Below are positions 44,432 to 62,169 of a stretch of DNA of 64,000 nucleotides, piece after piece; position 1 is the stretch's first letter; each line of letters starts with the position of its first letter. The notes under the pieces are model-generated. The model ran no database searches. It was given only the letters and a program-made list of their open reading frames with translations, and was not told where the DNA came from. The stretch spans positions 62,001-126,000 of the forward strand of contig VXTR01000068.1 in NCBI GenBank assembly GCA_009837355.1, read 5' to 3'. Both the position numbers and the translations under genes were made by a program. The DNA is from Chloroflexota bacterium (lineage in GTDB: Bacteria > Chloroflexota > Dehalococcoidia > Lucifugimonadales > UBA3495).

Positions 44432-44522
44432 CCGGTCTCTGGGCGTCCGCAAACGAACAACTCCTTGACCCCTCTGCTAATATGAACGAAATTCATCGCC
44501 CAGCATGACGGGAGCAACGATT

Positions 44523-45971
44523 ATGGGACTCAAACGCCTTTTGCTCAAACCGCTTTCCGGCTACCCCGGCGGCTATAAGAAGATGCGGCGAGGAACCCAG
44601 AGCTTCGACTCTACGCCTCCCTTCAAGACGCCCGACAACTCCCGCGACCGGCGCAGCCGTATGCCTCCTACGGGCTTCCGCGAGTACTGGTATCCTGCGT
44701 TGCCGGCTAAAGACGTGAAGAAGGACAAGCCCACCATGTTGCGGATGCTGGGCACCGATGTGGTCTTCTTCAAGGACAAGGAAGGCGAGGTGCAAGCCCT
44801 CCTGGACTGGTGCCCCCACCGCGCCGTCTATCTTTCCATGGGTCGCTGCTACTTTGAAGGATTTTTGACCTGCCCATACCACGGCGCCACCTTCGACGGC
44901 GACGGCAATTGCGTCGCTTTCCTGACGGAAGGACCGGAATCGATGATGGTCGGCGCGCCCGGTATGAAGGCCCGCAAGTTCCCCACCGTCACCCTCAAGG
45001 GCCTGGTCTTCGTCTGGATGGGCGAAGGCGAACCCGTAGCTCCCGAAGAGGACATACCGCCGGAGATGTTTGAGGAACACAACATCTGCCGACCGTCCTT
45101 CTGTATGTTCGATTGCAACTGGGTGCTGGTGCTTGAGAACACCATGGACGCCCACAACGCCTTCATGGTTCACCGCAATGCCCTGCGCATCTTGGGCAGT
45201 CGCGTTGGTGGTCGTCCCCGTACACCGCTGGGGTATCGCACCAACCTTGTCAACAACAAAAACGTCCACTACCGACCCGGCAGCGGAAAATCTTCCGTTG
45301 AACAGTACTACTATGACGAGGAAGGGAAAATCTCCTACCAGATGTACTATCCCGGCGTTGATGGCGTCTGGCCCCTGCACCGCTGGCGTCTGGCTTGGAC
45401 GTGGTTCTTCGACTGGAAAGCTCGGCGCAGGGGGCAGGATCCATATTACCGCCGGGGCGCCGCTGCCGACACGCCCGACGTGAACGAATGGAACGGTACC
45501 CGTCTGCCCGGAATGTCCCGTACCGGCGGCAATCACCGCTACTTCCGCAGTACCCGCTGGCCCGTGCCCGTGGAGGAAAACCTGACGCGGATGGTGTACC
45601 TCAACGTGGAGCGGTACGAAACGCGGCCCGGACTCTTCCGCCGGTTGGTAAAAGGAGCCACCTGGCCCTATCGCAATTGGGAACTCAACTTCAACTTCCG
45701 CAACCAGGACTACGACGCCGAGAAGTACACGCAATACGATATGCCCGAGTACCTGTCATCCACCGATTCGGTGGTGGTAGCCATGCGCCGGCTTTTCGCC
45801 GACCACAACCGCGACGTCATTCGCCAACGGGAGCGTGAAGAGGCTCTGCCGGAAATGATGGAAGAAAGCGAAGCCGAACGCATGGTGCGAGAGGGAGACG
45901 TCAAGGTCGCATCGGCTACCGAAGCCTTTGATGCTGACCGGCTGGAGTCAGAATTGCTGCGTAGGGTGTAG
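44523..45971 (+). CDS. Rieske non-heme iron oxygenase, alpha-subunit type
   Basis: 482 aa from the ATG at 44523, with GGGAG at 8-base spacing (an ATG at 44505 is less favoured). The Rieske [2Fe-2S] ligands are C97, H99, C117 and H120 in CPHR and CPYHG. The mononuclear iron site shows ENTMDAHNAFMVH with D209, H211 and H217. These fit ring-hydroxylating oxygenases or related demethylases. The N-terminal 50 residues and the C-terminal 60 are extra. It follows a cis-diol-dehydrogenase-like gene, but no reductase or beta subunit is nearby. Confidence 0.9.
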   Translation: MGLKRLLLKPLSGYPGGYKKMRRGTQSFDSTPPFKTPDNSRDRRSRMPPTGFREYWYPALPAKDVKKDKPTMLRMLGTDVVFFKDKEGEVQALLDWCPHRAVYLSMGRCYFEGFLTCPYHGATFDGDGNCVAFLTEGPESMMVGAPGMKARKFPTVTLKGLVFVWMGEGEPVAPEEDIPPEMFEEHNICRPSFCMFDCNWVLVLENTMDAHNAFMVHRNALRILGSRVGGRPRTPLGYRTNLVNNKNVHYRPGSGKSSVEQYYYDEEGKISYQMYYPGVDGVWPLHRWRLAWTWFFDWKARRRGQDPYYRRGAAADTPDVNEWNGTRLPGMSRTGGNHRYFRSTRWPVPVEENLTRMVYLNVERYETRPGLFRRLVKGATWPYRNWELNFNFRNQDYDAEKYTQYDMPEYLSSTDSVVVAMRRLFADHNRDVIRQREREEALPEMMEESEAERMVREGDVKVASATEAFDADRLESELLRRV

Positions 45972-46016: not shown

Positions 46017-46104
46017 GGAGGGATGGCAGAGTGGACGAATGCACCGGTCTTGAAAACCGGCAGGGCTAATACCCTCGTGGGTTCGAATCCCACTCCCTCC
46101 GCCA
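46017..46104 (+). tRNA. tRNA-Ser, anticodon TGA
   Basis: Acceptor arm GGAGGGA pairs with TCCCTCC, G discriminator at 46101 and an encoded CCA at 46102-46104. The anticodon loop CTTGAAA gives anticodon TGA, which reads UCA and related serine codons. A long variable arm (GGGCTAATACCCT) is present, as expected for serine, and GTTCGAATC forms the T arm. Total 88 bases with CCA. Confidence 0.97.
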
Positions 46105-46113
46105 GCTTACGGC

Positions 46114-47553
46114 TCACACCCGATTGCCCCAGTCAACATAGCGCGCTCCGCCGAACTGGCTGACCTGCACCTTCTGACGGTATCCGGCGGTTTCGGCTTC
46201 ATGTGCCTCAGTCCTCACGTCGCGGGTCGAGCCGGTTTCGTCTTTGAGGGCCTCTGATATCGCTCTGCCTTCCATCGCTCCCTCGTATCCGGTGATTCCC
46301 AGCAGGCGCAGGATAGTTGGAGCCAGGTCAACGTTGCCGGTTGGGGTATCAATCACAGTTTTGCTGCGCAGAGATGGGCCGCGCGCTAGGCCAACGTTGC
46401 GCAGTTCGTGCCGGCTCATGCTGCCATGCTGTCCCTGACCGGGAACGCCCCCGGTGGCCGGAGCGTGACCGGCGTAGCCGGCTTCATTGGCGTCGCTGTT
46501 CCAGGGGAATGACATAATCAGGTCCGGCGAGCGCAACCCGTCACATCCAATAATAGATGCGGGGAGTGTGCCGGCTGGCTGCCCGACGCGCTCGGATGCG
46601 AACAGTGGGCCGCACCAGTCCTGGGCAGTCAGCCACCGAGTGAACCGAGCCGCCACGCCAGGGTCGCAGTTGTTGACGTAAAACAGCGCCGAGCCGCCGT
46701 TGGCTGCAACGGCTACACCGCCATTTTGGTCAATAGTCGGAAAGCCACTGTCTCTCAGCATAGCCTCCACTGGAATGACCCTGCTGATGGTGGAATATCC
46801 GTGGTCGGACGCTATGAATACATCCGTGGTGTCCAGTCTGCCGTTTTGCTCCAGCCAGGCCATCACATTGCCAAACTCGGCGTCGGCTTCGCTCAGTGCT
46901 TGGTTGGCTCGGCCCGTGCCAACACCGTCCTCGTGCTGTGTCTTGTCTGGCTCGGATGACCAGAGCAGGGCCACGGCGGGGTTGAGTTCTGGGAGTATGT
47001 ACTCGGTCATGATGCGACGAGCGTGTGCCAGGCGGGATGTGTTGGGTAACTCCTGCGGCGGCCAGGCTCCAAACCGGGTTTCAAGCTCAGAATGCAGAGA
47101 GCGGGGCAATGTAAAGTCAGGGTGGATGGTCGCGCCACCGACCATCGCTGCGTTGGGGTTGTGTTGGTAGGCATTGCCGCTGGTTCCGTTGCCGATGGCG
47201 ATGTACTCCCGACCGTGCCGACCCAGGATGTCTGCGAGGGTAGGAGCCAGCAGGGTCTTGCCGGTTGCGTCGGCGATGGCTTGGAGGGTAGGTTCCATGG
47301 CGGGTATTATGCGGTGTGGATCAAAATCGCGGCAGAGGAACGTATTTCCAGCCAGGCCATGCCGGCCGGGAAGACAGCCGGTAACCATGCTGGACGCATT
47401 CACCCGGGTCACGGTGGGAAAAACCGGGTGATGATTGGCGAAGGTAACGCCGCCGTCGGCGAATTTGGCCAGATTGGGCATCAACTCCGGTGTAATCTGG
47501 GACGGTTGCAGTCCGTCGAATACCACTATCAGGACATTGTGAGCGTCAGGCAT
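46114..47553 (-). CDS. Type I phosphodiesterase/nucleotide pyrophosphatase family protein
   Basis: 479 aa. The N-terminal VLIVVFDGLQPSQITPELMPNL and HHPVFPTVTRVNASSMVTG (nucleophile Thr within PTVTR near residue 49) and the metal-binding IASDHGYSTI near 250 place it in the alkaline phosphatase superfamily, phosphodiesterase/NPP branch. The later GSMSRHELRNVGLARGP supplies further ligands. No signal peptide, so probably cytoplasmic. It is last in the long minus-strand run, 15 bases after the nucleoside hydrolase. Substrate (nucleotide, phosphonate or lipid headgroup) is unknown. Confidence 0.85.
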   Translation of the reverse strand: MPDAHNVLIVVFDGLQPSQITPELMPNLAKFADGGVTFANHHPVFPTVTRVNASSMVTGCLPGRHGLAGNTFLCRDFDPHRIIPAMEPTLQAIADATGKTLLAPTLADILGRHGREYIAIGNGTSGNAYQHNPNAAMVGGATIHPDFTLPRSLHSELETRFGAWPPQELPNTSRLAHARRIMTEYILPELNPAVALLWSSEPDKTQHEDGVGTGRANQALSEADAEFGNVMAWLEQNGRLDTTDVFIASDHGYSTISRVIPVEAMLRDSGFPTIDQNGGVAVAANGGSALFYVNNCDPGVAARFTRWLTAQDWCGPLFASERVGQPAGTLPASIIGCDGLRSPDLIMSFPWNSDANEAGYAGHAPATGGVPGQGQHGSMSRHELRNVGLARGPSLRSKTVIDTPTGNVDLAPTILRLLGITGYEGAMEGRAISEALKDETGSTRDVRTEAHEAETAGYRQKVQVSQFGGARYVDWGNRV

Positions 47554-47568
47554 ACCGGGACTCCTTGG

Positions 47569-48513
47569 TTATTTCCATTGCAGCAACTCATCAATGGCCG
47601 CCAGCGCGGCCCCGCTGTCCACGCCATCCCGCGCGGCTATGGAAATCGGGCCCTTAGTAGCGTCCGCAACCTGGCATGTCCCCCAGAACGCGGGATCATC
47701 GGTGGTATTGGAATCGACTACCGTCATTGCCACCGGCTGCAAGCGCACCACGTGAGGATGCGTTACCGCAAGGATGGTCAGCGGGTCGTATAGATGAAAT
47801 AGCTGGCGTGTTGAGTCTTTGCGAAACCAGCCGTTCAGCATTTCCGACGCCAGCTTGCCCATAGGGTTGGCCGTAGACGTCGGCGGAACCTGGTCATGGG
47901 ATAGATACACTTGCCGGCACGCGCCCAGGTCAATCAAAGTTAGCGGGATGCCTGACTCTATCACCAGTCTGGCCGCCGTGGGGTCGCTGTAGAAATTGAA
48001 TTCGGCGTGAGCAGAAACATTGCCGGGCACGTTGACGGCGCCACCCATTACAACTACACGCTTGGCGGCGCGCAAAGCCGCCGGTCGTCGCCTCAACAGA
48101 CGAGCCAGGTTGGTCAAAGGACCGAGCGCGATGACGGTAATCTCTCCGGGGTTATCCAGCAGGGACTGGGCCAGGAAGGATACGGCTGGGGTTTGTGACG
48201 GAGCGAGGTTCGGGTCGGGTAGCCGCCGAGTCAAGCCGGAAGCGGAGTGAACCTGGCGCGCGTAGGCATAGCGGCCGCGCATCGGACGCGCCGCGCCCTT
48301 GCATATTGGAATGTCAGGGCGTCCAACGTGTTCCAGAATCGCCAGTGCGTTCCGCGTGGCGCGAGCCAGAGGAACGTTGCCGGCCGTAGTGGTCAAGCCA
48401 ATGACGTTGAACTCCCGACAGGCCAAAGCCATCAGTATCGCGACGGCGTCGTCAACCCCTGGGTCAGTATCCAGGATTACCGGGAGGATGGGATGAGTGC
48501 CATCAGATGCCAT
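47569..48513 (-). CDS. Nucleoside hydrolase (inosine/uridine-preferring family)
   Basis: 314 aa. The calcium-site motif VILDTDPGVDDAVAILMAL is near residues 13-31 and MGGAVNVPGNVSAHAEFNFYSDP near 151-173 holds the active-site Asn/Glu residues. The family hydrolyses the N-glycosidic bond of ribonucleosides. It overlaps the upstream epimerase gene by 11 bases, so it is in the same transcript. Because this operon also makes adenosyl- and ribosyl-hopanoids, adenosine-type by-products could be its substrate; that is inference. Confidence 0.89.
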   Translation of the reverse strand: MASDGTHPILPVILDTDPGVDDAVAILMALACREFNVIGLTTTAGNVPLARATRNALAILEHVGRPDIPICKGAARPMRGRYAYARQVHSASGLTRRLPDPNLAPSQTPAVSFLAQSLLDNPGEITVIALGPLTNLARLLRRRPAALRAAKRVVVMGGAVNVPGNVSAHAEFNFYSDPTAARLVIESGIPLTLIDLGACRQVYLSHDQVPPTSTANPMGKLASEMLNGWFRKDSTRQLFHLYDPLTILAVTHPHVVRLQPVAMTVVDSNTTDDPAFWGTCQVADATKGPISIAARDGVDSGAALAAIDELLQWK

Positions 48514-49540
48514 TATGAGACCCCATTGCCAGCAAGTAGGAGTGGCAATAGGCGCGGATGGCCTGTTTTGACGTGTAGTTGAACTGTGTCCCCGTGGCCT
48601 GCCGGAACTTGGTGGAGGTCACGATTAAAGGGTGTCCGGCAAGGCCCCTACGGCTGATGCCGTGTGCCCGGCGAGGGTTGGGTAAGCCCGATGAGCCGGG
48701 CCTCCGGCAAAGCTCTATGACATCCCCAGGGGCGACGATTCCATTGCTGGCCACGTTGTAAACGCCGTTGAGTCTCTGTGAGATGGCGTGCTGGGTGGCG
48801 CGAACCAGGTCTTGCTGGTGTAGAAACTGGAAGGGGATGTTTCGCTTTCGTTTTGAAGCGGAGATGGAAGGAAAGAGTAGCTCATCCGCCACGGGACTGG
48901 AACCGCTCGGCCCTACCGTCATAGCGGCGCGTAATACGGCAATGCCCATTTCGTTCGGAGCAAGGCTTGGGTTCTGAAACTCCTCGGGATCGGGCTCAGC
49001 CTCAAGCAGAAGGCGATGTCGCTGTCCCGGATTGGGGGAGGAACGTTCGGTGAGCGGGATAGAGTTGCCTCGATTGATTCCGTACACACGGATGTCGGAC
49101 AGATACACCAATTGACCCACTCCGGCCACTCGACACATACGAGTCCAGTAGGCGGTGTTATTGAGAAACTGTTCTTGGTCAGATCCATCGTAGTGGCTGC
49201 CCACGTGAACCAGCGAGTCAACGTCTTCCAGATCCAGGACGTCCGATATGTCGGCCATAGTGGGCCGTCGAGTATCCATAATCATGTCCCACGCTCTTGC
49301 TTGCATCACCTCCGGTATGTCGTCAATGTGCAGAATTTCGCCGCCGTCCCTCCGGTCCATCCGGTAGGCGGACACCCGTTTAACCGGCCAGCGCAACGGC
49401 TGGGTGTCAATAGTCACAAAATGGCAGTTGGGCCATTCCGACTCCAGATGGGCCAACAGCAAGCCGCCGAAAGTGGATGAAGAGCCGACAACGGCTACCA
49501 CCTTGGGAAGGATTTGCGATGTCCGATCGGAGGTGGTCAT
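48503..49540 (-). CDS. NAD-dependent epimerase/dehydratase-like protein
   Basis: 345 aa. The N-terminal Rossmann segment VVAVVGSSSTFGGLLLAHLE (residues about 12-31) has a variant glycine motif (GSSxxxGG), followed by VDSLVHVGSHYDGSD near 110 and YLSDIRVYGINR near 146, which carries a Tyr at the expected place of the catalytic YxxxK but without the Lys four residues later. It overlaps the class II aldolase stop by ATGA. It may be an extended SDR acting on a sugar or nucleotide sugar, or a non-catalytic member. Function unknown. Confidence 0.78.
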   Translation of the reverse strand: MTTSDRTSQILPKVVAVVGSSSTFGGLLLAHLESEWPNCHFVTIDTQPLRWPVKRVSAYRMDRRDGGEILHIDDIPEVMQARAWDMIMDTRRPTMADISDVLDLEDVDSLVHVGSHYDGSDQEQFLNNTAYWTRMCRVAGVGQLVYLSDIRVYGINRGNSIPLTERSSPNPGQRHRLLLEAEPDPEEFQNPSLAPNEMGIAVLRAAMTVGPSGSSPVADELLFPSISASKRKRNIPFQFLHQQDLVRATQHAISQRLNGVYNVASNGIVAPGDVIELCRRPGSSGLPNPRRAHGISRRGLAGHPLIVTSTKFRQATGTQFNYTSKQAIRAYCHSYLLAMGSHNGI

Positions 49541-50193
49541 TGTCGAAACATCTCCATTTCGGCGGCGATAGCATCCTCCGGCAGGTTCACGGCAGCGCGG
49601 GGGCCGAAGTTGCGCGCCAGGACGAAAATGTGGGCCAGTCGTTCAACCAGGTCGCAGACTTCCAGAGCTTCCCAGATGTCGGGACCGACTCCCACGACAC
49701 CATGGTTGCGCAGCAGGGCGGCGTTGCGGTCGCCCAGAGCGGCCCAGGCTTCCTCGGCGAGTTCCTGTGTACCGGGGAAGGCATACTCGCTGACCTTGAC
49801 GGGACCGCCGATAGTAAGCAGCATTTCGTCAATGAGCGGTGGAATGTCGCGTCCAACTACCGCCGCCACGGACGCATATATGGAGTGAGTATGCGCCACT
49901 GCCTGCACGTCGTCGCGATTACGGTAAATCTCGAGGTGCACGCGGGTTTCCGACGAGGGACGCATCCCGCTAGGAACCACGGGCTCGCCGTCCAGGTTGA
50001 CGACGACCAGTTCTTCCGGCTGCAGGCGGTAGTAGGGATGGTGAGTAGGCGTAACCAGCAGCAGCCCCTGGTCCCCGACGCCGGAAAGCCTCAGGCTGGT
50101 GTTGCCCGAATATGCCCCGACTAGCCCCCGTCGGTACATTTCGCGGGTAGCTTCGGTCAATTCCCTGCGTTGTTCAGCCCATTGGTCTGACAC
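49537..50193 (-). CDS. Class II aldolase/adducin family protein
   Basis: 218 aa with a GTG start at 50193, overlapping hpnE by 20 bases; a longer start is possible. Zinc-ligand pattern AVAHTHSIYASVAAV near residue 98 and LLRNHGVVGVG near 159 with the early YSGNTSLRLS match L-fuculose-phosphate aldolase and ribulose-5-phosphate epimerase relatives. It would split or rearrange a phosphorylated sugar. It is directly downstream of hpnE. A role in salvage of 5-deoxyribose or ribose phosphate released near HpnG/HpnH is a reasonable hypothesis. Confidence 0.83.
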   Translation of the reverse strand: MSDQWAEQRRELTEATREMYRRGLVGAYSGNTSLRLSGVGDQGLLLVTPTHHPYYRLQPEELVVVNLDGEPVVPSGMRPSSETRVHLEIYRNRDDVQAVAHTHSIYASVAAVVGRDIPPLIDEMLLTIGGPVKVSEYAFPGTQELAEEAWAALGDRNAALLRNHGVVGVGPDIWEALEVCDLVERLAHIFVLARNFGPRAAVNLPEDAIAAEMEMFRQ

Positions 50194-51613
50194 GTTGCTG
50201 CTCCGGCGCGTGCGTGCGATGACCCACTGACGACATAACCGCCGCAGCCGCATTATATCCGCTGATGACCGCGCTCTCCATAGTGGAAGGCCAGCCGGTG
50301 TCGGTCCATTCCCCGGCCAGGAACAGGTTCGGTGACTCAGTGTGCGGGCCGGGGCGAAGTCTGTTGGCGCCGGGGATGCAGCGGAAGGTCGCGTTACGCT
50401 GCTTGACTACCACGGCCTCAAGCAAGGCGGCGTCGCGAGCTTTGGGGAACGCTCGGCGCATCTCATCGGTTATGAGATTGACCAGCGCCTCCCGTTCCGT
50501 ATCAATGAATTCCCAGGCCGCGCTGATTGATACGGACAGGGACTGTTGAACATTGGCATCAGCCTCTCCAAGGATTCGGGAACTGTTGAAAACCCATTGC
50601 AGCGGGCTGTTTACAAAGTAGCAGAAATCCCCGGTCATCACCGGCGCATCATAGCGTAGATGAACGTTGACGATTGGCGAGGCTTCCAGCGCCGACAGTT
50701 TGGTACTAGTGGGGCTGCCGGCCAATGATTGCGGCAGAAGACTGGGCAATACCCAGAAGGGAACGGCGCTGACGTAAGCGTCGGCCTGCATGGTATTGCC
50801 GTCGCTGAGGGTAACGTGCCGGATGGTTTGCTCGCCGCAGATGTTGACGCTGCGGACAGGACATCCAGTAACAACTCGAACCCCCAGGCTTTCCAGGTAG
50901 CGCTGCGCCGGCCGTGCCAGGGCATCACTAAGCGGAACCGTGGGGTATCCCACGTTGGCAGCGCTATGCCCACCCAGCAGCCCGTCCTGAACAATCATCA
51001 ACCCCATGGCTGCACTGACGTCGCGCACGTTATCGTTAAGCGTGCCCTCGATCAGCACGTTCCACAGATTAGAAATGGTACGCTCCGACTGACTCTTGGC
51101 GCGCAACCATCGGTAGAAGGTCATGTCTTCCAGATGAGGTTGTTGCCTCCGTGTGAACATTGCCGCCATCAATCCTAGCACGGTGGTGGCCTTGTCCTTA
51201 AGGTTCAGGTGAGGGTAGGTCAGAAATGCCGGCAGCAGGTGCCATGGCGAGGGGCCCGGCGCCCCGTACAGTCGGCCCAAACGACCGCCACGGTCGTACA
51301 CGGCAACTTCCAACTGGGGTTGCAGCTTCCAAAGATGACGAGCGTCAATGCGTTCCAGAAACGACACAAGGTTCCGGCAGGCGCCAACAATAACGTGCTG
51401 CCCGTTGTCGAGCGCCCGGCCACTTTGAGGGTCCTGAAAAGAAAAGACGCGCCCGCCCAACGTGGCACGGGCTTCCAGCAGCGTAACCTTGTAACCTGCC
51501 TCAGCCAGCTGGGCAGCAGCGGAGATCCCCGCCAGTCCACCGCCAATGACCAGCACGGAATGAGACGCACGGGCGATGGAGTTGTTCACCTCAGTAATAG
51601 GCCTGTGAGCCAT
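50174..51613 (-). CDS. hpnE: Hydroxysqualene dehydroxylase HpnE
   Basis: 479 aa. N-terminal FAD-binding motif VLVIGGGLAGISAAAQLAEAGYKVTLLEARATLGGR (split here only for description; glycines near residues 24-29), then an amine-oxidase-like body, and the C-terminal FLAGEWTDTGWPSTMESAVISG that closes the FAD site. The pattern and place directly after hpnD identify HpnE, which turns hydroxysqualene into squalene. The start overlaps hpnD by 28 bases, a sign of coupled translation. No membrane helix is evident. Confidence 0.9.
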   Translation of the reverse strand: MAHRPITEVNNSIARASHSVLVIGGGLAGISAAAQLAEAGYKVTLLEARATLGGRVFSFQDPQSGRALDNGQHVIVGACRNLVSFLERIDARHLWKLQPQLEVAVYDRGGRLGRLYGAPGPSPWHLLPAFLTYPHLNLKDKATTVLGLMAAMFTRRQQPHLEDMTFYRWLRAKSQSERTISNLWNVLIEGTLNDNVRDVSAAMGLMIVQDGLLGGHSAANVGYPTVPLSDALARPAQRYLESLGVRVVTGCPVRSVNICGEQTIRHVTLSDGNTMQADAYVSAVPFWVLPSLLPQSLAGSPTSTKLSALEASPIVNVHLRYDAPVMTGDFCYFVNSPLQWVFNSSRILGEADANVQQSLSVSISAAWEFIDTEREALVNLITDEMRRAFPKARDAALLEAVVVKQRNATFRCIPGANRLRPGPHTESPNLFLAGEWTDTGWPSTMESAVISGYNAAAAVMSSVGHRTHAPEQQRVRPMG

Positions 51614-52482
51614 GCCCGGGCCATCAGGCGCAGTTTGGCGGCTTTGCTCAAGCCAATGCGCTGGGTAAAAACATCATACCCAGCACGTTCAATGCGATTC
51701 AGCACTCCGCTGTAAATCAGGCCAAGGGCTGCCGGGCAGGCGCGGGAACGGGCCGGCAGGTAAGGGAGCAGTAGTCGCCCGCTGGCAAAGAGGCCGCGCG
51801 CACGTTCAATCTGAAGCCGCAGCAGGTCGGATATCCCTTCGGTAACGACGCCGGCGGCGATGTCAGCCTCGTCAACGCCGAAGCGAGCCATTTCATCCTG
51901 TGGCAGATAGACCCGGCCGAATTCCCAGTCCTCACGCACGTCGCGGCAGATATTGGTAATCTGCATTGCCAGGCCGAGGTCGATGGCGCGCTGGCGAGCC
52001 GGCTCCCCTCCACGGTACCCGAAAATATGGATGCAGATGAGGCCCACGACAGACGCCACTTGGTAGCAGTACCGTCGCAGTTCTTCAAAGTCGGCATATC
52101 GGGTTTTCACCAGGTCGGATTCGACCCCGTTCAGCACTTCCTGGAAGTATTCCTGTGGGATGTCGTAGGTAATGGCAACATCATAGAGGCCAATAAAGAG
52201 GGGCTGCGTGGCTAGCCCCAAGTAGGCTTCGGCCAGCATTTCGCGCAGCTGATTGACCCGCGCCAGTTTTTCGTCGTGAGTTCCTTCGGCGTCAACCGAA
52301 TCATCGCAGTAGCGGCAGAAAGTGTAGGCCACGTAGATGGCTCGACGCTGCGGCGCGGGCAGGGTCAAGAATGCGAAGTAGAAGTTACGGGCTTCCCGGC
52401 GCGTAACCTGCCGGCACTCTTCATAGGCGTCGGCCAACACCTCAGGCGGGGGTGGCGATGCGGCACGCGCGGGCGTAGTCAT
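51586..52482 (-). CDS. hpnD: Presqualene diphosphate synthase HpnD
   Basis: 298 aa. Squalene/phytoene synthase family: the first Asp-rich motif YTFCRYCDDSVD is near residues 52-63 and the second, NICRDVREDWEFGRVYLP, near 178-195. It condenses two farnesyl diphosphates to presqualene diphosphate. The pairing hpnC-hpnD-hpnE is the three-gene route to squalene used by hopanoid producers, with hpnC on its 5' side here. Start lies 6 bases after the hpnC stop. Confidence 0.92.
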   Translation of the reverse strand: MTTPARAASPPPPEVLADAYEECRQVTRREARNFYFAFLTLPAPQRRAIYVAYTFCRYCDDSVDAEGTHDEKLARVNQLREMLAEAYLGLATQPLFIGLYDVAITYDIPQEYFQEVLNGVESDLVKTRYADFEELRRYCYQVASVVGLICIHIFGYRGGEPARQRAIDLGLAMQITNICRDVREDWEFGRVYLPQDEMARFGVDEADIAAGVVTEGISDLLRLQIERARGLFASGRLLLPYLPARSRACPAALGLIYSGVLNRIERAGYDVFTQRIGLSKAAKLRLMARAWLTGLLLR

Positions 52483-52488
52483 CGGTTT

Positions 52489-53487
52489 TCACACAGTCGG
52501 CAGCCCATAGCCAAGGCCAAACCTATTGAGCAGCCATGCCGAACCCAGCAACCAGGCTTTACGGCCCTTGGACAGCGCCGGCCGGTTGCTGAGTACGTCA
52601 TAATCTTGCCCGCGGATGGCCTCCAGCACCGCAACGCCGCCACGAGTGAACAAGGCTACCGGCAATCGAGCCGGACCATCTAAAGACGCTACCAACGGTG
52701 TGCCCTGACGGAACAATTCCATGGCGACGTCGCATTCGTAGCGCAAAAGTGCCCGGAAAGCGTTGTCAGCTTTTTCGGAAGCGATGCTGTCCTCAGTTAC
52801 GCCGAACCTGTCCCGGTCCGCCGTAGGCAGATAGATGCGTCCCCGGTCACGGTAATCGCGGGCCACGTCCTGCCAGAAATTGGTCAACTGCAAGGCGGTG
52901 CAGGTGCAGTCCGCTAGGCGCTGACGTTCCGAGTCAGAGTATCCGAAAAGATACAGGAAAAGGTGGCCGACCGGGTTGGCGGAGTAAGCGCAATAGTCTA
53001 GAACGTCGTCCAGCGTGGCGAACCGACCGGAACCCTGATCTATACGGTTAGCCTGAATTAGGCGAAGGAAGGGTTCGCGGGGTATATCGAAAACCCTGAC
53101 CGTGTTTTGGATGGCGACTGTGATGGGATGGGACGGTCGGCCGGTGTAGGTGGATTCCAGTTCCGATTGCCACCAGTCAAGCCGTTCCAGGCGATGTTGC
53201 GTAGTCGCGTAGTCGGGGCCCCCATCGGTCGCGGAGGGTTCACCGGCGTGCTCCGGCCTCACTTCATCGCCCAGGTCGTCCACCATCCGGCACCAGGCGT
53301 AGATAGCGTGGACGTGAGGCAGTTTATCCCGAGGCGTAATCCAGCCGCCCACGTTGAAGTTTTCGTAATGACTGCGAGCCAGGTCGGCGCAGTAACGATA
53401 GGCGTCGTCCAGCGGGACGCTTGGCGAACCTGGCGCAACGGTGGATACGGTCGCAGCCGACGGCCCGGTGTCAAAGGTGGTGGACAT
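52489..53487 (-). CDS. hpnC: Hydroxysqualene synthase HpnC
   Basis: 332 aa. Second squalene/phytoene synthase family member: HAIYAWCRMVDDLGDE near residue 65-80 and NFWQDVARDYRDRGRIYLP near 205-223 carry the paired Asp motifs. HpnC converts presqualene diphosphate to hydroxysqualene. It is distinguished from HpnD by position and by its longer N-terminus. Residues 1-25 are Thr/Ser-rich and probably unstructured. Follows the YjbQ-like gene by 30 bases in the same direction. Confidence 0.9.
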   Translation of the reverse strand: MSTTFDTGPSAATVSTVAPGSPSVPLDDAYRYCADLARSHYENFNVGGWITPRDKLPHVHAIYAWCRMVDDLGDEVRPEHAGEPSATDGGPDYATTQHRLERLDWWQSELESTYTGRPSHPITVAIQNTVRVFDIPREPFLRLIQANRIDQGSGRFATLDDVLDYCAYSANPVGHLFLYLFGYSDSERQRLADCTCTALQLTNFWQDVARDYRDRGRIYLPTADRDRFGVTEDSIASEKADNAFRALLRYECDVAMELFRQGTPLVASLDGPARLPVALFTRGGVAVLEAIRGQDYDVLSNRPALSKGRKAWLLGSAWLLNRFGLGYGLPTV

Positions 53488-53517: not shown

Positions 53518-53961
53518 CTAATCTCCGACGATTTGCACCATCACTTCGCGAGGCCGAGGATGGTCCAACTCGATGAAAAAGATACTCTGCCACTGGCCGA
53601 AAGGTATTTTGCCGTCGATCAGCGGGATAGTTTCACTGCAGCCGAGCATCAGGTGCTGGAGATGGGCATGGCCGTTAGGGGACTCGTCCTCGGTCATGTT
53701 CACCGTGCGGATGGAGAAGTCATTGTGGCGGTAATACGCGTCGCGGGGGGCGATGCGCTCTAGGAACTCGGCCATGTCCTCAATCAGCAACGGTTCGTTT
53801 TCGTTGATTTTCACCGCCGCGGTGGTGTGCCTCGAGTACACCAGAACGAGGCCGTTGCTGACCTTGGACTCGGCCACACACCCCTTCACCCAGTCGGTGA
53901 TGTCAATCAACTGCGGGGCGTCTTTGGTATCGACTTTGAGGGAGAAATTTTTGACTTTCAT
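53518..53961 (-). CDS. YjbQ/UPF0047 family protein
   Basis: 147 aa from the ATG at 53961. Family pattern: VLVYSRHTTAAVKINENEPLLIEDM near residue 42, YRHNDFSIRTVNMTEDESPNGHAHLQHLMLG near 78, and GQWQSIFFIELDHPRPREV at the end, with the SRHTTA and GHAH histidines conserved. Members have weak thiamin phosphate synthase activity; their main role is unclear. It overlaps the end of the squalene-hopene cyclase ORF by 59 bases on the same strand. Its place inside a hopanoid operon is unusual. Confidence 0.88.
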   Translation of the reverse strand: MKVKNFSLKVDTKDAPQLIDITDWVKGCVAESKVSNGLVLVYSRHTTAAVKINENEPLLIEDMAEFLERIAPRDAYYRHNDFSIRTVNMTEDESPNGHAHLQHLMLGCSETIPLIDGKIPFGQWQSIFFIELDHPRPREVMVQIVGD

Positions 53962-56047
53962 AAGTGGCACTTTGACTACATGGCTGTGGTTCGGTGTAAA
54001 TCCGGTTACGGTAGCGGGCCAAGGCCAGCAAGGGCCAAGTGTTACGGTACAGATGGTAATTTATCATAAACCCAGCGGATAATTCCATGCCTTGGAATCC
54101 GCGTTCGCCGGGCTTGGGCACCCGGCTCACCCTTTCGCCTTTGATGTATCCGGGGAACCCTGTGCCCGTGAAGTACGGTTCTTCCCAATGCCCATCGGGC
54201 TGTTGGGTTCGCAGCAGATAGTCAACGCTGCGGTGGGCGGCCGGATGGTCGCCGTCGCCGGCGGCTATGAGAGCCATAAGAGCCCACGCGGTCTGCGAAG
54301 CGGTGCTCGGACCGACACCGTGCTGCTCGATGTCAACGTAGGAAGCGCAGGATTCGCCCCAACCCCCGTCGTCATTCTGATGGTCCAGTAGCCATTGAAC
54401 GGCGCGGCGCACATAGGGCTGTTTCATGTCCTCACCAATTGCTTCCAGCGCCGGTAGAACTGCGCCAAGGCCATAGACATAGTTGACGCCCCAGCGCCCG
54501 AACCAACTGCCGTTGTCCTCCTGCTCGAAACGGAGGTATCGGTAAGCAGATTGCAGGGATTCGGTGTTGATCTTGTAGCCCAGCTTGCCGTACATTTCCA
54601 GCACATGGGCGGTGACGTCGGCGCTGGAAGGGTCCAGGACTTCTCCGAAATCGCTAAAGGTCAGAGCGGTTACGTAGGCATGATTGTTGTTCTTGTCGAA
54701 AGAGGCCCAGCCACCATCCCTGTTTTGCATTCCGGTTACCCAGTCCAGAGCGCGGTCAATGGCCTGTTGGCGCAGAAAGTCTTTGTCGTCAGGCAGTTTC
54801 CCCAGGCGCAGGGCCAGTACCACCTCAGCGGTGTCGTCAATGTCAGGGTAACAGTTGTTGTGAAACTCGAACGCCCACCCGCCGGGTTGGAGCTGGCGCG
54901 CCTGCACCTGCCAGTCTCCGCCAACCAGAATCTGTTTGTCCACCAGCCAGTTAGTAGCGGACGCAAGCATGGGGTCATCGGTAGAGACGCCGCTCTCGGC
55001 CAGAGCCTGCACTACCAAGCAAGTATCCCAAACGGGGGAGATGCAGCCCTGAATTGTCCAGCGATCGTCTTTCTGGATGCCGAACCCGTCGAGTCCGTGG
55101 AAACCTCGCTTGATTGCCGGGTGATCATTGGGAAAGCCGCAGATGCTGAGGGCAATCAAGCTGTACACCCAGGGAGGCTGAATACCACCCCAACTGCCGT
55201 CGTCCTCCTGGTGTTCCAGAATCCAGCGGATTGCCCTTTTCTCGGCGGCTTTGGTCAAGGGATTGAATTTCTTGACGCGGTAATAGATTTTCCCTAGGGT
55301 TTCGTCGATGATGTGCATCAACCTGGGCAATGTAAAGCCCGGTGGCTTGGGAAGGGTGTAGTCGGTGCCGGCACGGCCGTTGGGGAGCAATTCGTCGATG
55401 GCCTGTTCAGGCGGTATTGGTCGCACCGGGCGCTTGGAAAGTACGATGGACAAGGGCACTATGCAGCCGCGGGCCCAGCTGGCAAAACGGTAGATGCTGA
55501 GCGGCGCCCAATCGGGCAAAAGCATCATTTCGGTGGGGAGACGAGGCGTACCCTCCCAATCCCATTGGCCGAAAAGAGCAAACCAGATACGAGTGAACAC
55601 GCGCACCCTCGGCAAGCCTCCCCGTTGCAGGATAAACTCCCTGGCGCGACTCATAGCGTCGGATTCGGGGTCTTCCCCGCATAGTTTCAGGGCAAAGTAA
55701 CACTCCACGGAGGTGGACAAGTCACCAGGAGCGCCGTAATAGATGGACCAGGAGCCGTCGGCGAGCTGCTTGCTGAGCAGGTAGTTGACGATGTGCCGTT
55801 CCCGCTCCGGATTGTGGTGGCCCAGGAAGCGGGACAGCATAACGTACTCCGCCTCCATGGTGTTGTTGGATTCCAGTTCGCCCCACCAGTAGCCCAAGTC
55901 GCTTTGAATGCCGCGGAAGTAGCCGTGCAGCTTCGAGATAGCGCCGTCAACCGCTGCTTGTGAAGGGACAGCTCCGGACGATTCGACATCACGCCGTATT
56001 TTTGTGGAACGCAGCATAATCTCTTTTATCCAGGGTGATTGACTCAC
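53903..56047 (-). CDS. shc: Squalene-hopene cyclase
   Basis: 714 aa, GTG start overlapping the hpnA stop as GTGA. The catalytic DxDD motif is D402-I-D-D405 in PDIDDTAEV, followed by several QW repeats such as QNRDGGWASF and QNDDGGWGES. These mark class II triterpene cyclases, which convert squalene to hopene and hopanol on the membrane. The conserved C-terminal NYHLYRNTWPLLALARYR is followed by about 30 extra residues, rich in Gln and Ser, that overlap the start of the YjbQ-like gene. The tail is probably not structured. Confidence 0.94.
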   Translation of the reverse strand: MSQSPWIKEIMLRSTKIRRDVESSGAVPSQAAVDGAISKLHGYFRGIQSDLGYWWGELESNNTMEAEYVMLSRFLGHHNPERERHIVNYLLSKQLADGSWSIYYGAPGDLSTSVECYFALKLCGEDPESDAMSRAREFILQRGGLPRVRVFTRIWFALFGQWDWEGTPRLPTEMMLLPDWAPLSIYRFASWARGCIVPLSIVLSKRPVRPIPPEQAIDELLPNGRAGTDYTLPKPPGFTLPRLMHIIDETLGKIYYRVKKFNPLTKAAEKRAIRWILEHQEDDGSWGGIQPPWVYSLIALSICGFPNDHPAIKRGFHGLDGFGIQKDDRWTIQGCISPVWDTCLVVQALAESGVSTDDPMLASATNWLVDKQILVGGDWQVQARQLQPGGWAFEFHNNCYPDIDDTAEVVLALRLGKLPDDKDFLRQQAIDRALDWVTGMQNRDGGWASFDKNNNHAYVTALTFSDFGEVLDPSSADVTAHVLEMYGKLGYKINTESLQSAYRYLRFEQEDNGSWFGRWGVNYVYGLGAVLPALEAIGEDMKQPYVRRAVQWLLDHQNDDGGWGESCASYVDIEQHGVGPSTASQTAWALMALIAAGDGDHPAAHRSVDYLLRTQQPDGHWEEPYFTGTGFPGYIKGERVSRVPKPGERGFQGMELSAGFMINYHLYRNTWPLLALARYRNRIYTEPQPCSQSATYESQKFLPQSRYQRRPAVD

Positions 56048-57060
56048 CGACGGTTTCGCAGATAGCCGTGGTCGGTAAACCAGCGGACCGCTTTTTCCAG
56101 CGCAGTTTCCACAGGGCTCTGGGGCAAACCCAACTCGCCAACTGCCTTTTGGCTGCTGACATACATGGGATGGCGGGCGATTTTGACGACTTCAATCGGG
56201 ATGGCGGGATGGCGATGCAATATGCCGCTTTCAAGCCATTGGTCGCAGTAGGCTAGGCCGGTGATGAACCAGAAGGGGAAACGTAGGCGCGGGACACGCC
56301 GGCCCGTGATGGCGGCGAGCATTCCGAATACTTCGCTCAGGGTCAAATTGCGGTGCCCCAGAATATAGCGCTCGCCGGGCCTGCCGCGTTCCATGGCGAG
56401 GATATGGCCCTGGGCGACGTCAGAGACGTCCACCAAGTTCATGCCGGTGTCCAAATAGCCTGGAATGCGTCCCCGGGCAAAGTCCAGGGGAATGCGGCCC
56501 GTCGGTGTGGGTTTGACGTCCCACTTGCCCACCGGGGCGCAGGGATTCACTACCACAACTTCCAAATCGTCATCGTTAGCAGCTAAAGCCAACCGCTCGG
56601 CCTGATACTTGGACTGCTTGTAATGTCCAATGAGATGAGACGCGTCAGGCGGCATGCCTTCATCGCCCAATTTTCCTTGGGGATGCCCCGCGCCGGTTGC
56701 GGGCAGGCCAATGGTGGAAACCGAACTGGTGAACACCACGCGGCGCACCCCGGCCTGACGCACGGCGTCCAGCAGGTTGCGAGTCCCGTCAACGTTGGCC
56801 TGGTAAATCAGGGAGGGATTGGAAGTCCAGAAAGCGTAAGTGGCGGCGCAGTGGTACACGGCGTCGCAACCGGAGACGGCGCGGCGCAGTGAGTCTGCGT
56901 CGAGCAGGTCTCCAATAACCTGTGCGACGCTAGTGCCACGGATTGCCAGGTCGTTGGCTCCCCTACGAACCAGAGCGCGCACATCATCGCCTCGGGCAGC
57001 CAGAGCGCGGGTTAGATTGCCGCCGATGAATCCGGTAGCTCCCGTCACCAGTACCGTCAT
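56044..57060 (-). CDS. hpnA: Hopanoid-associated sugar epimerase HpnA
   Basis: 338 aa, ATG overlapping the hpnG stop as ATGA. Extended SDR with VLVTGATGFIGGNLTRALAARG (residues 3-24), VVFTSSVSTIG near 110 and the catalytic YKQSKYQAER near 146-155. HpnA-like proteins are found in hopanoid clusters and are thought to act on the sugar part of the side chain, though the step is not fully proved. Family position and neighbours agree. Confidence 0.9.
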   Translation of the reverse strand: MTVLVTGATGFIGGNLTRALAARGDDVRALVRRGANDLAIRGTSVAQVIGDLLDADSLRRAVSGCDAVYHCAATYAFWTSNPSLIYQANVDGTRNLLDAVRQAGVRRVVFTSSVSTIGLPATGAGHPQGKLGDEGMPPDASHLIGHYKQSKYQAERLALAANDDDLEVVVVNPCAPVGKWDVKPTPTGRIPLDFARGRIPGYLDTGMNLVDVSDVAQGHILAMERGRPGERYILGHRNLTLSEVFGMLAAITGRRVPRLRFPFWFITGLAYCDQWLESGILHRHPAIPIEVVKIARHPMYVSSQKAVGELGLPQSPVETALEKAVRWFTDHGYLRNRR

Positions 57061-57758
57061 GGCGGAACCTCTCTTGGAATCGGCTGCGCCACAGCTAGAG
57101 CGTCAATTGTGTCCAGAACGCAGCGGGTCAAGTTGCGGCACGCAGAACGGGATTGCATGGCGAGTTTCAAGAGCGTGGGCAGCCGGCCTGGCCGAATGAC
57201 GGCGTTCAGTACAACGCGAGCCGGCCGGACATCCGTGGCTGTCAGGTGCTCGGGCAGAGACTGGTCGGCAGTATCCAGTACAGCGCGGACTGACGCGAAA
57301 GGCACGCCGGCCGCCGCCGCCGCCGATGCAGCCCAATAATCTTCCATGTTAACGGACGCAATGCCGGCAGAGCGACGCAGTTCCGCTTTGGTCGCCGGGC
57401 CGGCGATGCTGCCTACGGTTAGCGACGGCTCGTCGGAGACGTTGACGCCTTGGCTACGAGCGCTGGCGAACATAGCCGAGGACAGCTCGGCGTCGGCGAA
57501 GATGGAGTTGTTTTCGCCGAGGCGGAAAGAAGCGGCGACGTGCAGGTCGCCCGTCCTCAGGCCGGGATCGGCGCTCCCGCAGAAGCCAGCCATTATCACG
57601 GCTTTCGGGCGGACCTGCGCAATGGGGACAAAACCGGTAATCGTTGCCGTTTTGCCAATGCCGGTGACGTAAAAGCACAGTCCACGACTTTCAGGGTCGC
57701 GGATGGCCCGACGGATGCCGGACAGCTCCGTCGCCATGGGTGCTGCTATGGCAAGCAT
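57057..57758 (-). CDS. hpnG: Nucleoside phosphorylase-like HpnG
   Basis: 233 aa from the ATG at 57758 (an in-frame GTG at 57764 is an alternative). MLAIAAPMATELSGIRRAI at the start, YVTGIGKTATITGFVPIAQ near residue 30-48, and ASVNMEDYWAASAAAAAGVPFASVRAVLDTAD near 137-168 match MTA/SAH nucleosidase-like phosphorylases. In hopanoid clusters HpnG removes adenine from adenosylhopane to give ribosylhopane. It sits directly after hpnH with one to eight bases between, and before hpnA. Confidence 0.9.
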   Translation of the reverse strand: MLAIAAPMATELSGIRRAIRDPESRGLCFYVTGIGKTATITGFVPIAQVRPKAVIMAGFCGSADPGLRTGDLHVAASFRLGENNSIFADAELSSAMFASARSQGVNVSDEPSLTVGSIAGPATKAELRRSAGIASVNMEDYWAASAAAAAGVPFASVRAVLDTADQSLPEHLTATDVRPARVVLNAVIRPGRLPTLLKLAMQSRSACRNLTRCVLDTIDALAVAQPIPREVPP

Positions 57759-57765
57759 AGGCACG

Positions 57766-58857
57766 CTACCCCACGCTGATACCGCCTTTATGGGCCGCTC
57801 CAGACTTGATGAAAGTTACCCACTCCCTGGGTTTGCCGATGGCGTTGAAAATCGTGGCTGATTCAAAGCCGCAGTGCATCATGCAGTTGTTGCAGCGAGG
57901 GTCGCGGCCAACACCATATTTTTCATCCCAGAGTTCAGGCTCGTAAAGTTCGTTGAAGTTTTCGGTGTGCTCGTCGGCTAGGGGGTAACAGGGTTTGCGC
58001 CAGCCCATGACGGTATAGGTAGGATTCGACCAGGCGGTGCACTGGTACTCCCGGTCGCCACGCAAGAAATTGAGGTAAAGGGGGTTGTTATAGAACCGCA
58101 TACCGTCCATCCGAGTGGGATCCAGCAGGTTGCGGAAAACGTTGCGAGATTCCTGGCGGGTGAGGAACAAGTCCTGGTCCGGCGCGTCCTCAAAGTCGTA
58201 GCCGGGGGAAATCATGGAGCCCTCCACACCTAGGTCGCTGACGTAGCGGAACATTTCGCGCAGGTCTTCAACGTCGCTGTTGCGGAACACAGTGGTGTTG
58301 GTGCAGACACGATAGCCTCGGTCTATGGCCATGCGGATGCCATCCGTGGCGCGCTTGAAAACGCCAGCGCGGGCTACCGATTCGTCATGCTTGGCCTCCA
58401 TGCCGTCCATGTGGATGACCCAGCAGAAATACTTGGAAGGCGGGACTTTGTCCAGCATCCGAGGCAGAAGCAGGGCGTTGGTACAGCAATAGACGAAGTA
58501 TTTTTGCTCCACCAGGGTGTTGATGATTTTGTCGATGTGGGGGTGAATGGTAGGTTCGCCTCCAGCAATGGAGACGATGGGCGCGCCGGAGTTGTGCACG
58601 GCGGCCAGTGCTTCTTCCACAGGCATCATCTTGTCCAGTACGCCGCGGTACTCGCGAATGCGGCCGCAACCGATGCAGGCCAGGTTGCACATCTCCAAGG
58701 GTTCAAGCATAGTTACCAGCGGAAAGCGCTTGCGACCGCGAAGCCGGTTTTTGAGGATGTACCAGCCCATGCGCAGGCCCAGTTCCATGGGGCGTTTGGC
58801 AGGGGACGTTTGGCCTGCCTCGATGGCAGCTGGGGGGTCGGTATGAGTCTGAACCAT
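57766..58857 (-). CDS. hpnH: Adenosylhopane synthase HpnH (radical SAM)
   Basis: 363 aa from the ATG at 58857, with GGAG upstream. The radical SAM cluster motif CNLACIGC has C57, C61 and C64, followed by VSIAGGEPTIHP, the glycine-rich SAM segment. The C-terminal CNNCMMHCGFES has further cysteines, typical of HpnH. It adds a 5'-deoxyadenosyl radical to diploptene to form adenosylhopane. It lies 37 bases after the polyprenyl synthase gene on the same strand. Confidence 0.94.
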   Translation of the reverse strand: MVQTHTDPPAAIEAGQTSPAKRPMELGLRMGWYILKNRLRGRKRFPLVTMLEPLEMCNLACIGCGRIREYRGVLDKMMPVEEALAAVHNSGAPIVSIAGGEPTIHPHIDKIINTLVEQKYFVYCCTNALLLPRMLDKVPPSKYFCWVIHMDGMEAKHDESVARAGVFKRATDGIRMAIDRGYRVCTNTTVFRNSDVEDLREMFRYVSDLGVEGSMISPGYDFEDAPDQDLFLTRQESRNVFRNLLDPTRMDGMRFYNNPLYLNFLRGDREYQCTAWSNPTYTVMGWRKPCYPLADEHTENFNELYEPELWDEKYGVGRDPRCNNCMMHCGFESATIFNAIGKPREWVTFIKSGAAHKGGISVG

Positions 58858-58894
58858 GGCTATAGTCTCCGAAAGTATGAGCGTGGCCGGTAAG

Positions 58895-60004
58895 TCAGAA
58901 CAGGCGGTAGGCCATGAAGTCAATTAACTGACCGGCATCGTCGGCAGCCCACGGTGGCAATTCCAAGGTGGACAGGGCGGCGCGGGCTTCCTGGGCAGTG
59001 ATTTCGGTGAGATAGTCGGTCTGGGCGGCGGCCCCGATGTCATCCAGAATGTCGAGAACGCGGTCAACATTGCCTTCGTCGAGGGTTTCCTGACTGTAGA
59101 GTCTGAGGAGTTCGTTACGGTTGGCGCCGTCGGCCTGCTGAAAAGCGTAGACGATAGGATAGCTCTTTTTGCGTTGCACAATGTCGCTGTCGGTGGATTT
59201 GCCGGTAATTGCCTCGTCACCCCAGATTCCCAAGTAGTCATCGCGAATTTGGAACAGCCTCCCGATAGCGCGTCCGAATCTGGCGACGCCGTCGATGGTG
59301 TCGGCCTCGTGGGTGGCGACGGTGGCGCCGATTACCAAGCTGCTGCGGATAAGGGCCCCTGTCTTCAAGGCTATCATATCCAGGTATTCATCGGTTCCGA
59401 TTGTTTCCCGCTGCTCGAATTGCAAGTCTCGGCACTGGCCTTCAATCATCTCAACGTAGCTTTGGGTGAGCAACTGGGAGACGCGCACGGCGGTATCAGA
59501 GGCAACAGCGCCGTCGCAATGCAGGATGGCTAAGTCGCCCAAGGACTGCATAGCATCGCCGGCCACGAGAGCTCGAGGAGTTCCCCACAAGGCCCATACG
59601 GTGGGCTGGTGTCGTCGTTCCAAGCCCTGATCCTGGATGTCGTCGTGTACCAGGGAAAAGTTGTGAATCAATTCCAGGGCTGCGGCAGCCGGTGCAGCAT
59701 GAGCCGGTTCTCCCCGCAGGGCGTCACACGCGAACATACATAGGGTAGGGCGAAGGGCCTTACCCTGAGACGCCGGAGTGGGGGAAGGAACGCCGTCGTG
59801 GTCGGACCAACCGAGATGGTAGCGCAGCAGAATGTTAACGGGATGCCACTGCAGGGCAGGCACGGCATCAGCCAGCGCGGCTTCCAGATGCTCACGATAG
59901 CGGTCAAACATAGGCGGCAAAACCGGCCCGGCCTCTGCCGAGCCACCATTTGTCCGCGGGCTGGATTGACGAACTTCTACTGAACCTGTTGGTGTGGTGC
60001 CCAT
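58895..60004 (-). CDS. Polyprenyl (farnesyl/geranylgeranyl) diphosphate synthase
   Basis: 369 aa. First Asp-rich motif LVHDDIQD with D121, D122 and D125, second FQIRDDYLGIWGD near 236-248, plus GKALRPTLC (near 81-89). These define trans-isoprenyl diphosphate synthases. It is the first gene of the hopanoid operon, so farnesyl diphosphate is the likely product. Chain length cannot be fixed from sequence alone. The first 30 residues are polar and the ribosome site is weak, so the start may lie further in. Confidence 0.9.
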   Translation of the reverse strand: MGTTPTGSVEVRQSSPRTNGGSAEAGPVLPPMFDRYREHLEAALADAVPALQWHPVNILLRYHLGWSDHDGVPSPTPASQGKALRPTLCMFACDALRGEPAHAAPAAAALELIHNFSLVHDDIQDQGLERRHQPTVWALWGTPRALVAGDAMQSLGDLAILHCDGAVASDTAVRVSQLLTQSYVEMIEGQCRDLQFEQRETIGTDEYLDMIALKTGALIRSSLVIGATVATHEADTIDGVARFGRAIGRLFQIRDDYLGIWGDEAITGKSTDSDIVQRKKSYPIVYAFQQADGANRNELLRLYSQETLDEGNVDRVLDILDDIGAAAQTDYLTEITAQEARAALSTLELPPWAADDAGQLIDFMAYRLF

Positions 60005-61683: not shown

Positions 61684-62169
61684 ATGATTATCCTTACCGA
61701 CGAACCCCTGGACCCGGTGGCCGTTACCGATTCGGTACGCGGCGACGGCAACGGCGCGGTGGTTACCTTCCTCGGCACCACTCGCGATAACTTCGGTGGT
61801 AAAACCGTCACCCGGCTGGAGTATGAAGCCTACGACGTGATGGCCGTCAAGAAGCTGCACGAAGTGCGGGATAGCTTGCGCGTTGACTACGGCATAGAGG
61901 ACATCGCCATTGCCCACCGCACCGGACGGGTAGATGTCGGGCACATCAGCCTGGTGGTGTCTGTGGCCTCCCCGCACCGGGTGGTTGCATTTGAGGCGTG
62001 CCACGAGGCGGTGAACCGCATCAAGACCATCGTGCCCATTTGGAAGAAGGAATGGTTTGCCGACGGCTCCCGATGGGTCGCCTGCGAAGACCACGAATTT
62101 ACCGACGAAGCTGAGCGCCGGCACGCTCACGCTGGGCGGCGGCACGCGGTTGGCGCGGCGGATGATTAG
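61684..62169 (+). CDS. moaE: Molybdopterin synthase catalytic subunit MoaE
   Basis: 161 aa. MoaE marks: VVTFLGTTRDNFGG near residue 25-38, LEYEAYDVMAVKKL near 44-57, IEDIAIAHRTGRVDVGHISLVVSVASPHR near 74-102 and IWKKEWFADGSRWV near 119-132 with the catalytic Lys pair. The large subunit of molybdopterin synthase moves sulfur from MoaD to precursor Z. It is convergent with rimM with 6 bases between stops. No other moa genes are in view. Confidence 0.93.
   Translation: MIILTDEPLDPVAVTDSVRGDGNGAVVTFLGTTRDNFGGKTVTRLEYEAYDVMAVKKLHEVRDSLRVDYGIEDIAIAHRTGRVDVGHISLVVSVASPHRVVAFEACHEAVNRIKTIVPIWKKEWFADGSRWVACEDHEFTDEAERRHAHAGRRHAVGAADD

Follow-up and report, generated by a model that had tools for sequence, protein, structure and literature searches.

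The subject of this analysis is a tail of four genes, centred on a class II aldolase gene, that follows the hopanoid genes of a Chloroflexota bacterium. We refer to the whole 64 kb stretch analysed (positions 62,001 to 126,000 of contig VXTR01000068.1, assembly GCA_009837355.1) as the window; it comes from a genome of 3.25 Mb in 89 contigs, to which SAR202/Dehalococcoidia metagenome-assembled genomes (MAGs) are the closest named relatives. The tail ends a minus-strand run of 13 genes headed by a polyprenyl diphosphate synthase gene (58895..60004; PF00348). Next come hpnH, encoding the radical S-adenosylmethionine (SAM) adenosylhopane synthase (57766..58923; TIGR03470, 429 bits against a cut-off of 225), an hpnG-like phosphorylase gene (57057..57764; PF01048), hpnA (56044..57060; TIGR03466, 412 bits), the squalene-hopene cyclase gene shc (53903..56047; TIGR01507, 760 bits), the YjbQ/UPF0047 gene (53518..53970; PF01894, TIGR00149), hpnC (52489..53487; TIGR03464, 299 bits, cut-off 250), the presqualene diphosphate synthase gene hpnD (51586..52482) and the hydroxysqualene dehydroxylase gene hpnE (50174..51613; TIGR03467, 444 bits, cut-off 283). 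HpnH, Shc, HpnA, HpnC and HpnE passed their curated NCBIfam scores, and HpnD fell slightly below (TIGR03465, 259 bits, cut-off 279). The window holds all core genes of the known hopanoid operon hpnA-C-D-E-G-H-shc, including Shc, HpnH, HpnC, HpnD and HpnE, the core of the C35 hopanoid cluster. It differs from that operon in the polyprenyl synthase and yjbQ genes inside the run and in the sugar-enzyme tail behind it.

The tail consists of the class II aldolase (ALD, 49537..50193, GTG start; PF00596, E = 6.5e-50), an epimerase-like protein (EPI, 48503..49540) recognized as a diverged short-chain dehydrogenase/reductase (SDR) by alignment with intact SDRs encoded at the equivalent operon position in other families, an IU-type nucleoside hydrolase (NUH, 47569..48513; PF01156, E = 2.4e-72) and a protein assigned, at family level only, to the type I phosphodiesterase/nucleotide pyrophosphatases (PDE, 46114..47553; PF01663, E = 3.7e-37). 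A convergent tRNA-Ser(TGA) gene found by ARAGORN on the plus strand (46017..46104) marks the downstream end. An earlier note made from the letters of this DNA had described four genes continuing from hpnE with overlaps or short gaps, which we confirm: hpnE and aldolase overlap by 20 bp, aldolase and epimerase-like protein by 4 bp, and epimerase-like protein and hydrolase by 11 bp, and a gap of 15 bp precedes the phosphodiesterase gene. No terminator-like site was found at the hpnE/aldolase joint. An internal promoter there was also considered and dropped, as the promoter-like match at 50280-50252 is one of five matches where 5.5 were expected and is no evidence. An in-frame ATG upstream of the aldolase start, at 50253, lacks homologue support.

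The same arrangement recurs in the window's genus. We compared 10 other congeneric loci (six from a genome search and four contigs from a named collection); the 13-gene order is common to all 10, and nine show all four tail genes (contig L036 stops inside the hydrolase gene). The earlier note had named absence of the tail next to hpnE in relatives as grounds for giving up its proposal; instead the tail stays beside hpnE in every congeneric locus read. Given this shared order, the arrangement is more than chance. Mean pairwise identity within the genus is 89% for HpnH, 86% for both the aldolase and YjbQ, 77% for Shc and 65% for HpnE, and the fastest-evolving proteins are the epimerase-like protein (54%) and HpnG (48%). 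The strong divergence of HpnG, beside an HpnH so well conserved, is also seen in its TIGR03468 score of 89 bits (cut-off 187). Throughout the order the yjbQ gene keeps its place within the hopanoid operon, and it remains beside the aldolase gene where hopanoid genes have been lost.

Beyond the genus the tail takes a fuller form. In other SAR202 families a D-2-hydroxyacid dehydrogenase and an FGGY kinase are typically encoded between hpnE and the aldolase, which is followed by a small beta-type protein of about 123 residues, then an SDR and often a nucleoside hydrolase; in many SAR202 loci sufBCD (named by sequence recognition) are next in line after the module. The FGGY kinase (E 1e-10) and the small protein (E 0.001) were absent genome-wide from all seven genomes of the window's genus searched, and the dehydrogenase was absent from the locus, no genome-wide search for it having been made. 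Because of these absences we see in the window's tail a genus-specific reduction of a larger module, one that occurs in SAR202 and in three Chloroflexota families outside the order (f47, f58 and f68). Consistent with this, in the aldolase tree the window's enzyme is nested in a module clade from SAR202, f47, f58 and f68 (support 98/94), with DrdA and FucA outside it. The phosphodiesterase gene was seen only in loci of the window's genus among those read, and its membership in the conserved module is not supported. Coupling to isoprenoid supply was also considered, a dxs gene lying beside the f68 module at L189, and was dropped, since among the loci compared a dxs match occurs there only.

Our strongest result is that this aldolase-centred sugar module is co-inherited with hopanoid synthesis. 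Among 147 genomes of the order, from 41 families, 72 have the aldolase and 74 have Shc: 62 have both, 10 only the aldolase, 12 only Shc and 63 neither (odds ratio 33; Fisher p = 1.5e-18). With one genome per family (n = 41) the counts are 15, 3, 4 and 19, respectively (p = 3.3e-5); these tests ignore kinship within and between families, and their p values are indicative only. HpnH co-occurs with the aldolase much as Shc does (odds ratios of about 33), whereas MtnA, used as a metabolic control, has an odds ratio with the aldolase of only 4.5. Adjacency is not what holds the pair together, as aldolase and Shc still co-occur in genomes where they are widely separated or placed on separate contigs (G005, G007, G040, G055 and G103). 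Outside the order the module directly follows hpnE in f47 (L183) but lies away from Shc in the four f68 genomes read, at a distance of about 1.5 Mb in one of them (G169). Shc is present in all 17 f68 genomes that have the small protein (four of these 17 were read for module context). In f58, one of two genomes has Shc, and one has the module away from Shc. No full-length Shc is present in nine genomes whose small protein stands alone. Thus, the tie between tail and hopanoid chemistry suggested by the earlier note gains partial support that goes beyond adjacency, although the tail it had in mind is the reduced form of a larger module. In the literature library searched, no report of this co-inheritance or of a sugar-enzyme tail behind hopanoid genes was found, no paper combined the terms 'hopanoid' and 'class II aldolase', and the two papers on SAR202 make no mention of an aldolase.

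Given the co-inheritance, what the aldolase might do becomes the central question. Its residues E82, H101, H103 and H164 do not vary among 22 homologues and align with the Glu/His motifs of DrdA (6btd) and FucA, and the PSSE glutamate is kept; by alignment it retains the catalytic Glu and metal-binding His residues expected of a FucA/DrdA-type enzyme. Its best single-sequence match in the PDB is DrdA, the 5-deoxyribulose-1-phosphate aldolase of the dihydroxyacetone phosphate (DHAP) shunt (PMC6079011), an enzyme that accepts a variety of aldehydes in an acceptor pocket larger than that of FucA (PMC6079011). The likeness to DHAP-shunt aldolases that the earlier note had pointed out is therefore real at the level of best match, but the tree (which did not include Ald2) places DrdA together with FucA and apart from the module clade, and this led us to reject orthology with DrdA. 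The described shunt runs through DrdK-DrdI-DrdA, or through MtnP or MtnN plus MtnK, then MtnA and Ald2. Like it, the window genome pairs a class II aldolase having equal Glu/His motifs with MtnP and MtnA, and HpnH is a radical SAM source of 5'-deoxyadenosyl units. The differences are that the window's aldolase sits behind hopanoid genes and that the module of other families has an FGGY-type kinase in place of MtnK or DrdK. The genes for MtnP (260267-260986) and MtnA (262226-263209) lie about 1.2 kb apart outside the window (G000:C46); MtnP was found in 11 of 11 and MtnA in seven of seven genomes of the genus searched. As the window genome has MtnP, MtnA and only one aldolase of the module type (at E 1e-20), a phosphorylase-MtnA-aldolase route to DHAP and an aldehyde appears to be encoded.

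On this basis we propose, at a probability of roughly 40%, that the aldolase is a DHAP-releasing enzyme for ribose-derived sugars that occur in the synthesis of the hopanoid side chain, within a reduced hopanoid-linked module. Its substrate would be a ketose-1-phosphate derived from the ribose moiety of adenosylhopane itself or of by-products formed when adenosylhopane is made, and cleavage of this substrate would set DHAP free. In the window's genus, which lacks the kinase and the small protein and whose SDR is probably dead, this ketose-1-phosphate would arise along the lines of the MtnP variant of the DHAP shunt, by phosphorolysis (HpnG or MtnP) and isomerization (MtnA), such that 5-R-ribose-1-phosphate would give 5-R-ribulose-1-phosphate and then DHAP plus R-acetaldehyde. 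R would be either hydrogen, from 5'-deoxyadenosine, or hopanyl, from adenosylhopane, in which case the product would be a C32 hopanoid aldehyde. The nucleoside hydrolase may supply ribose from nucleosides. Sequence does not separate acetaldehyde formation (by-product salvage) from formation of the C32 aldehyde (side-chain cleavage). The narrower proposal that the module cleaves the C5 side chain which ribose contributes to hopanoids, with phosphorolysed adenosylhopane isomerized to 5-hopanyl-ribulose-1-phosphate and the latter split into DHAP and the C32 hopanoid aldehyde, seems quite unlikely; if true, C32 hopanoids would have an enzymatic source in this cleavage, or the cleavage would serve to take the side chain down.

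Among the other tail proteins, the label 'epimerase' in the sense of an active enzyme had to be abandoned. The protein gave no match in Pfam (E 1), NCBIfam (E 0.001) or the PDB sequences (E 1) and lacks the SDR YxxxK dyad, which is Leu/Ala in the window; the Lys is lost in all 11 congeneric sequences, and in the genus Ser replaces Gly in the middle of the nucleotide loop. In the alignment, three more genomes from the window's family deviate at the dyad, and the dyad is intact in every tabulated sequence from outside that family. Hence, the window's protein is probably no longer an SDR-type enzyme and probably catalytically dead. The nucleoside hydrolase keeps the N-terminal calcium motif DTDPGVDDA (DxDxxxDD). 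In IU-type nucleoside hydrolases the His of the HDP motif is the leaving-group His; the window and its genus have YDP at this position, and elsewhere in the order it is mostly CDP. In the relatives, the small protein (loci L089-L103, e.g. L102:10669-11040) has, according to an AlphaFold2 model built from 15 relatives (predicted local distance difference test score, pLDDT, 88), the fold of a C-glycoside deglycosidase beta subunit: all 17 PDB hits having E < 1e-3 in the structure search were structures of such enzymes, either beta subunits or fused chains. By this model, the Pfam name of PF25653 (HMG-CoA reductase N-terminal domain) does not describe the fold of these members. The likeness to the known deglycosidases (CarB/C, DgpB/C, DfgA/B) stops at the predicted beta subunit, as no alpha subunit (TIM barrel) was recognized in the conserved module, the genomes not having been searched for one, and the window's genus does without the small protein. 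Apart from the tail, the tRNA-Ser gene is adjoined by a gene (44505-45971) for a Rieske-type oxygenase with a weak match to the model of the 4beta-methylsterol monooxygenase SdmA.

Several observations count against our proposal. The MtnP and MtnA genes on which the proposed route would depend lie outside the operon, and the statistics given above draw on related genomes. Outside SAR202 the link runs one way, and, f68 apart, the module's small protein is missing from most genomes with Shc there; within the order stand the 12 Shc genomes that lack the aldolase; from these genomes it follows that hopanoid synthesis does not need the module. Most of the aldolase-less Shc loci read (G003, G046, G051, G068 and G146) retain the SDR gene, sometimes with the hydrolase gene, at the operon end. 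Conversely, no Shc was detected in 10 aldolase genomes, which argue that the aldolase substrate need not be a hopanoid. Three of them (G033, G086 and G139; L051, L067 and L200) have hpnCDE beside the aldolase module, which raises the possibility that they make squalene or C30 products without hopanoids. In three f29 genomes (G119, G132 and G140; L198, L199 and L201) the genes for polyprenyl synthase, HpnG-like protein, YjbQ, aldolase and hydrolase are kept together; siroheme/heme genes follow this retained group at L198. Of the remainder, G002 has the module without hopanoid genes nearby, G013 and G071 have yjbQ-aldolase, and G063 has HpnH. Because the G119 and G132 aldolases nest inside the module clade, the Shc-less genomes look like later losses of hopanoid genes in which the aldolase was kept.

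It is also possible, if somewhat unlikely in our judgement, that the aldolase, hydrolase, HpnG-like protein, MtnP and MtnA serve general nucleoside salvage, in which the 5'-deoxyadenosine, methylthioadenosine and ribosides left by radical SAM and SAM-dependent enzymes of every kind would be disposed of through a DHAP shunt and HpnH would only add to the load. The DrdA match, the nearness of the MtnP and MtnA genes to each other and the three f29 genomes fit such a role. A general role is hard to square with an aldolase that tracks Shc and HpnH far better than MtnA, a difference that favours a hopanoid-specific role, and with the FGGY kinase, hydroxyacid dehydrogenase and C-glycosidase-beta-like protein encoded outside the window's family, which are foreign to the described DHAP shunt, as well as with the position of DrdA outside the module clade. 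A Bacillota MAG operon (L132) raises a different possibility. It encodes homologues of the dehydrogenase, FGGY kinase and class II aldolase in an order identical to that of the module, but together with ABC and MFS transporters, an IclR regulator and an aldehyde ferredoxin oxidoreductase, and has no hopanoid genes in the 20 kb read; by analogy this context points to plain sugar catabolism and also speaks against our proposal. An ordinary sugar or sugar-acid catabolic module could thus have landed behind hpnE in an ancestor as a functionless neighbour and since been lost mostly together with hpnE, as unrelated genes such as sufBCD also stand next in line in many SAR202 loci. We regard this as rather unlikely, given that joint presence and absence hold even at large distances between module and Shc, and likewise in f68 and f58, whose modules have no Shc next to them.

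Finally, the aldolase-family protein could be a decarboxylase or epimerase acting on an oxidized hopanoid side chain, a sugar-acid route in which dehydrogenases would form a keto acid and the kinase would phosphorylate it. The class II aldolase superfamily includes both activities, the window's protein matches the 3-oxo-tetronate-4-phosphate decarboxylase model (101 bits, cut-off 250), and the full module has two dehydrogenases. However, the closest solved relatives of the protein are all FucA/DrdA aldolases, its PSSE glutamate is kept, and in the window's genus the dehydrogenase is not at the locus and the SDR dyad is lost. We consider such a route highly improbable.

Hopanoids are among the most used molecular fossils, yet little is known of the steps that follow adenosylhopane; for instance, no enzyme has been established for the conversion of ribosylhopane to bacteriohopanetetrol (PMC12583986). 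For annotation, the present analysis replaces an epimerase by a probably dead relative and questions the Pfam label PF25653. For the biology of these bacteria, a sugar module lying behind lipid genes hints at a so far undescribed reaction in the formation or recycling of the sugar-derived tail of the hopanoid, and sugar enzymes inherited together with Shc and HpnH in many uncultivated Chloroflexota families supply named candidate genes for processing the side chain or disposing of by-products.

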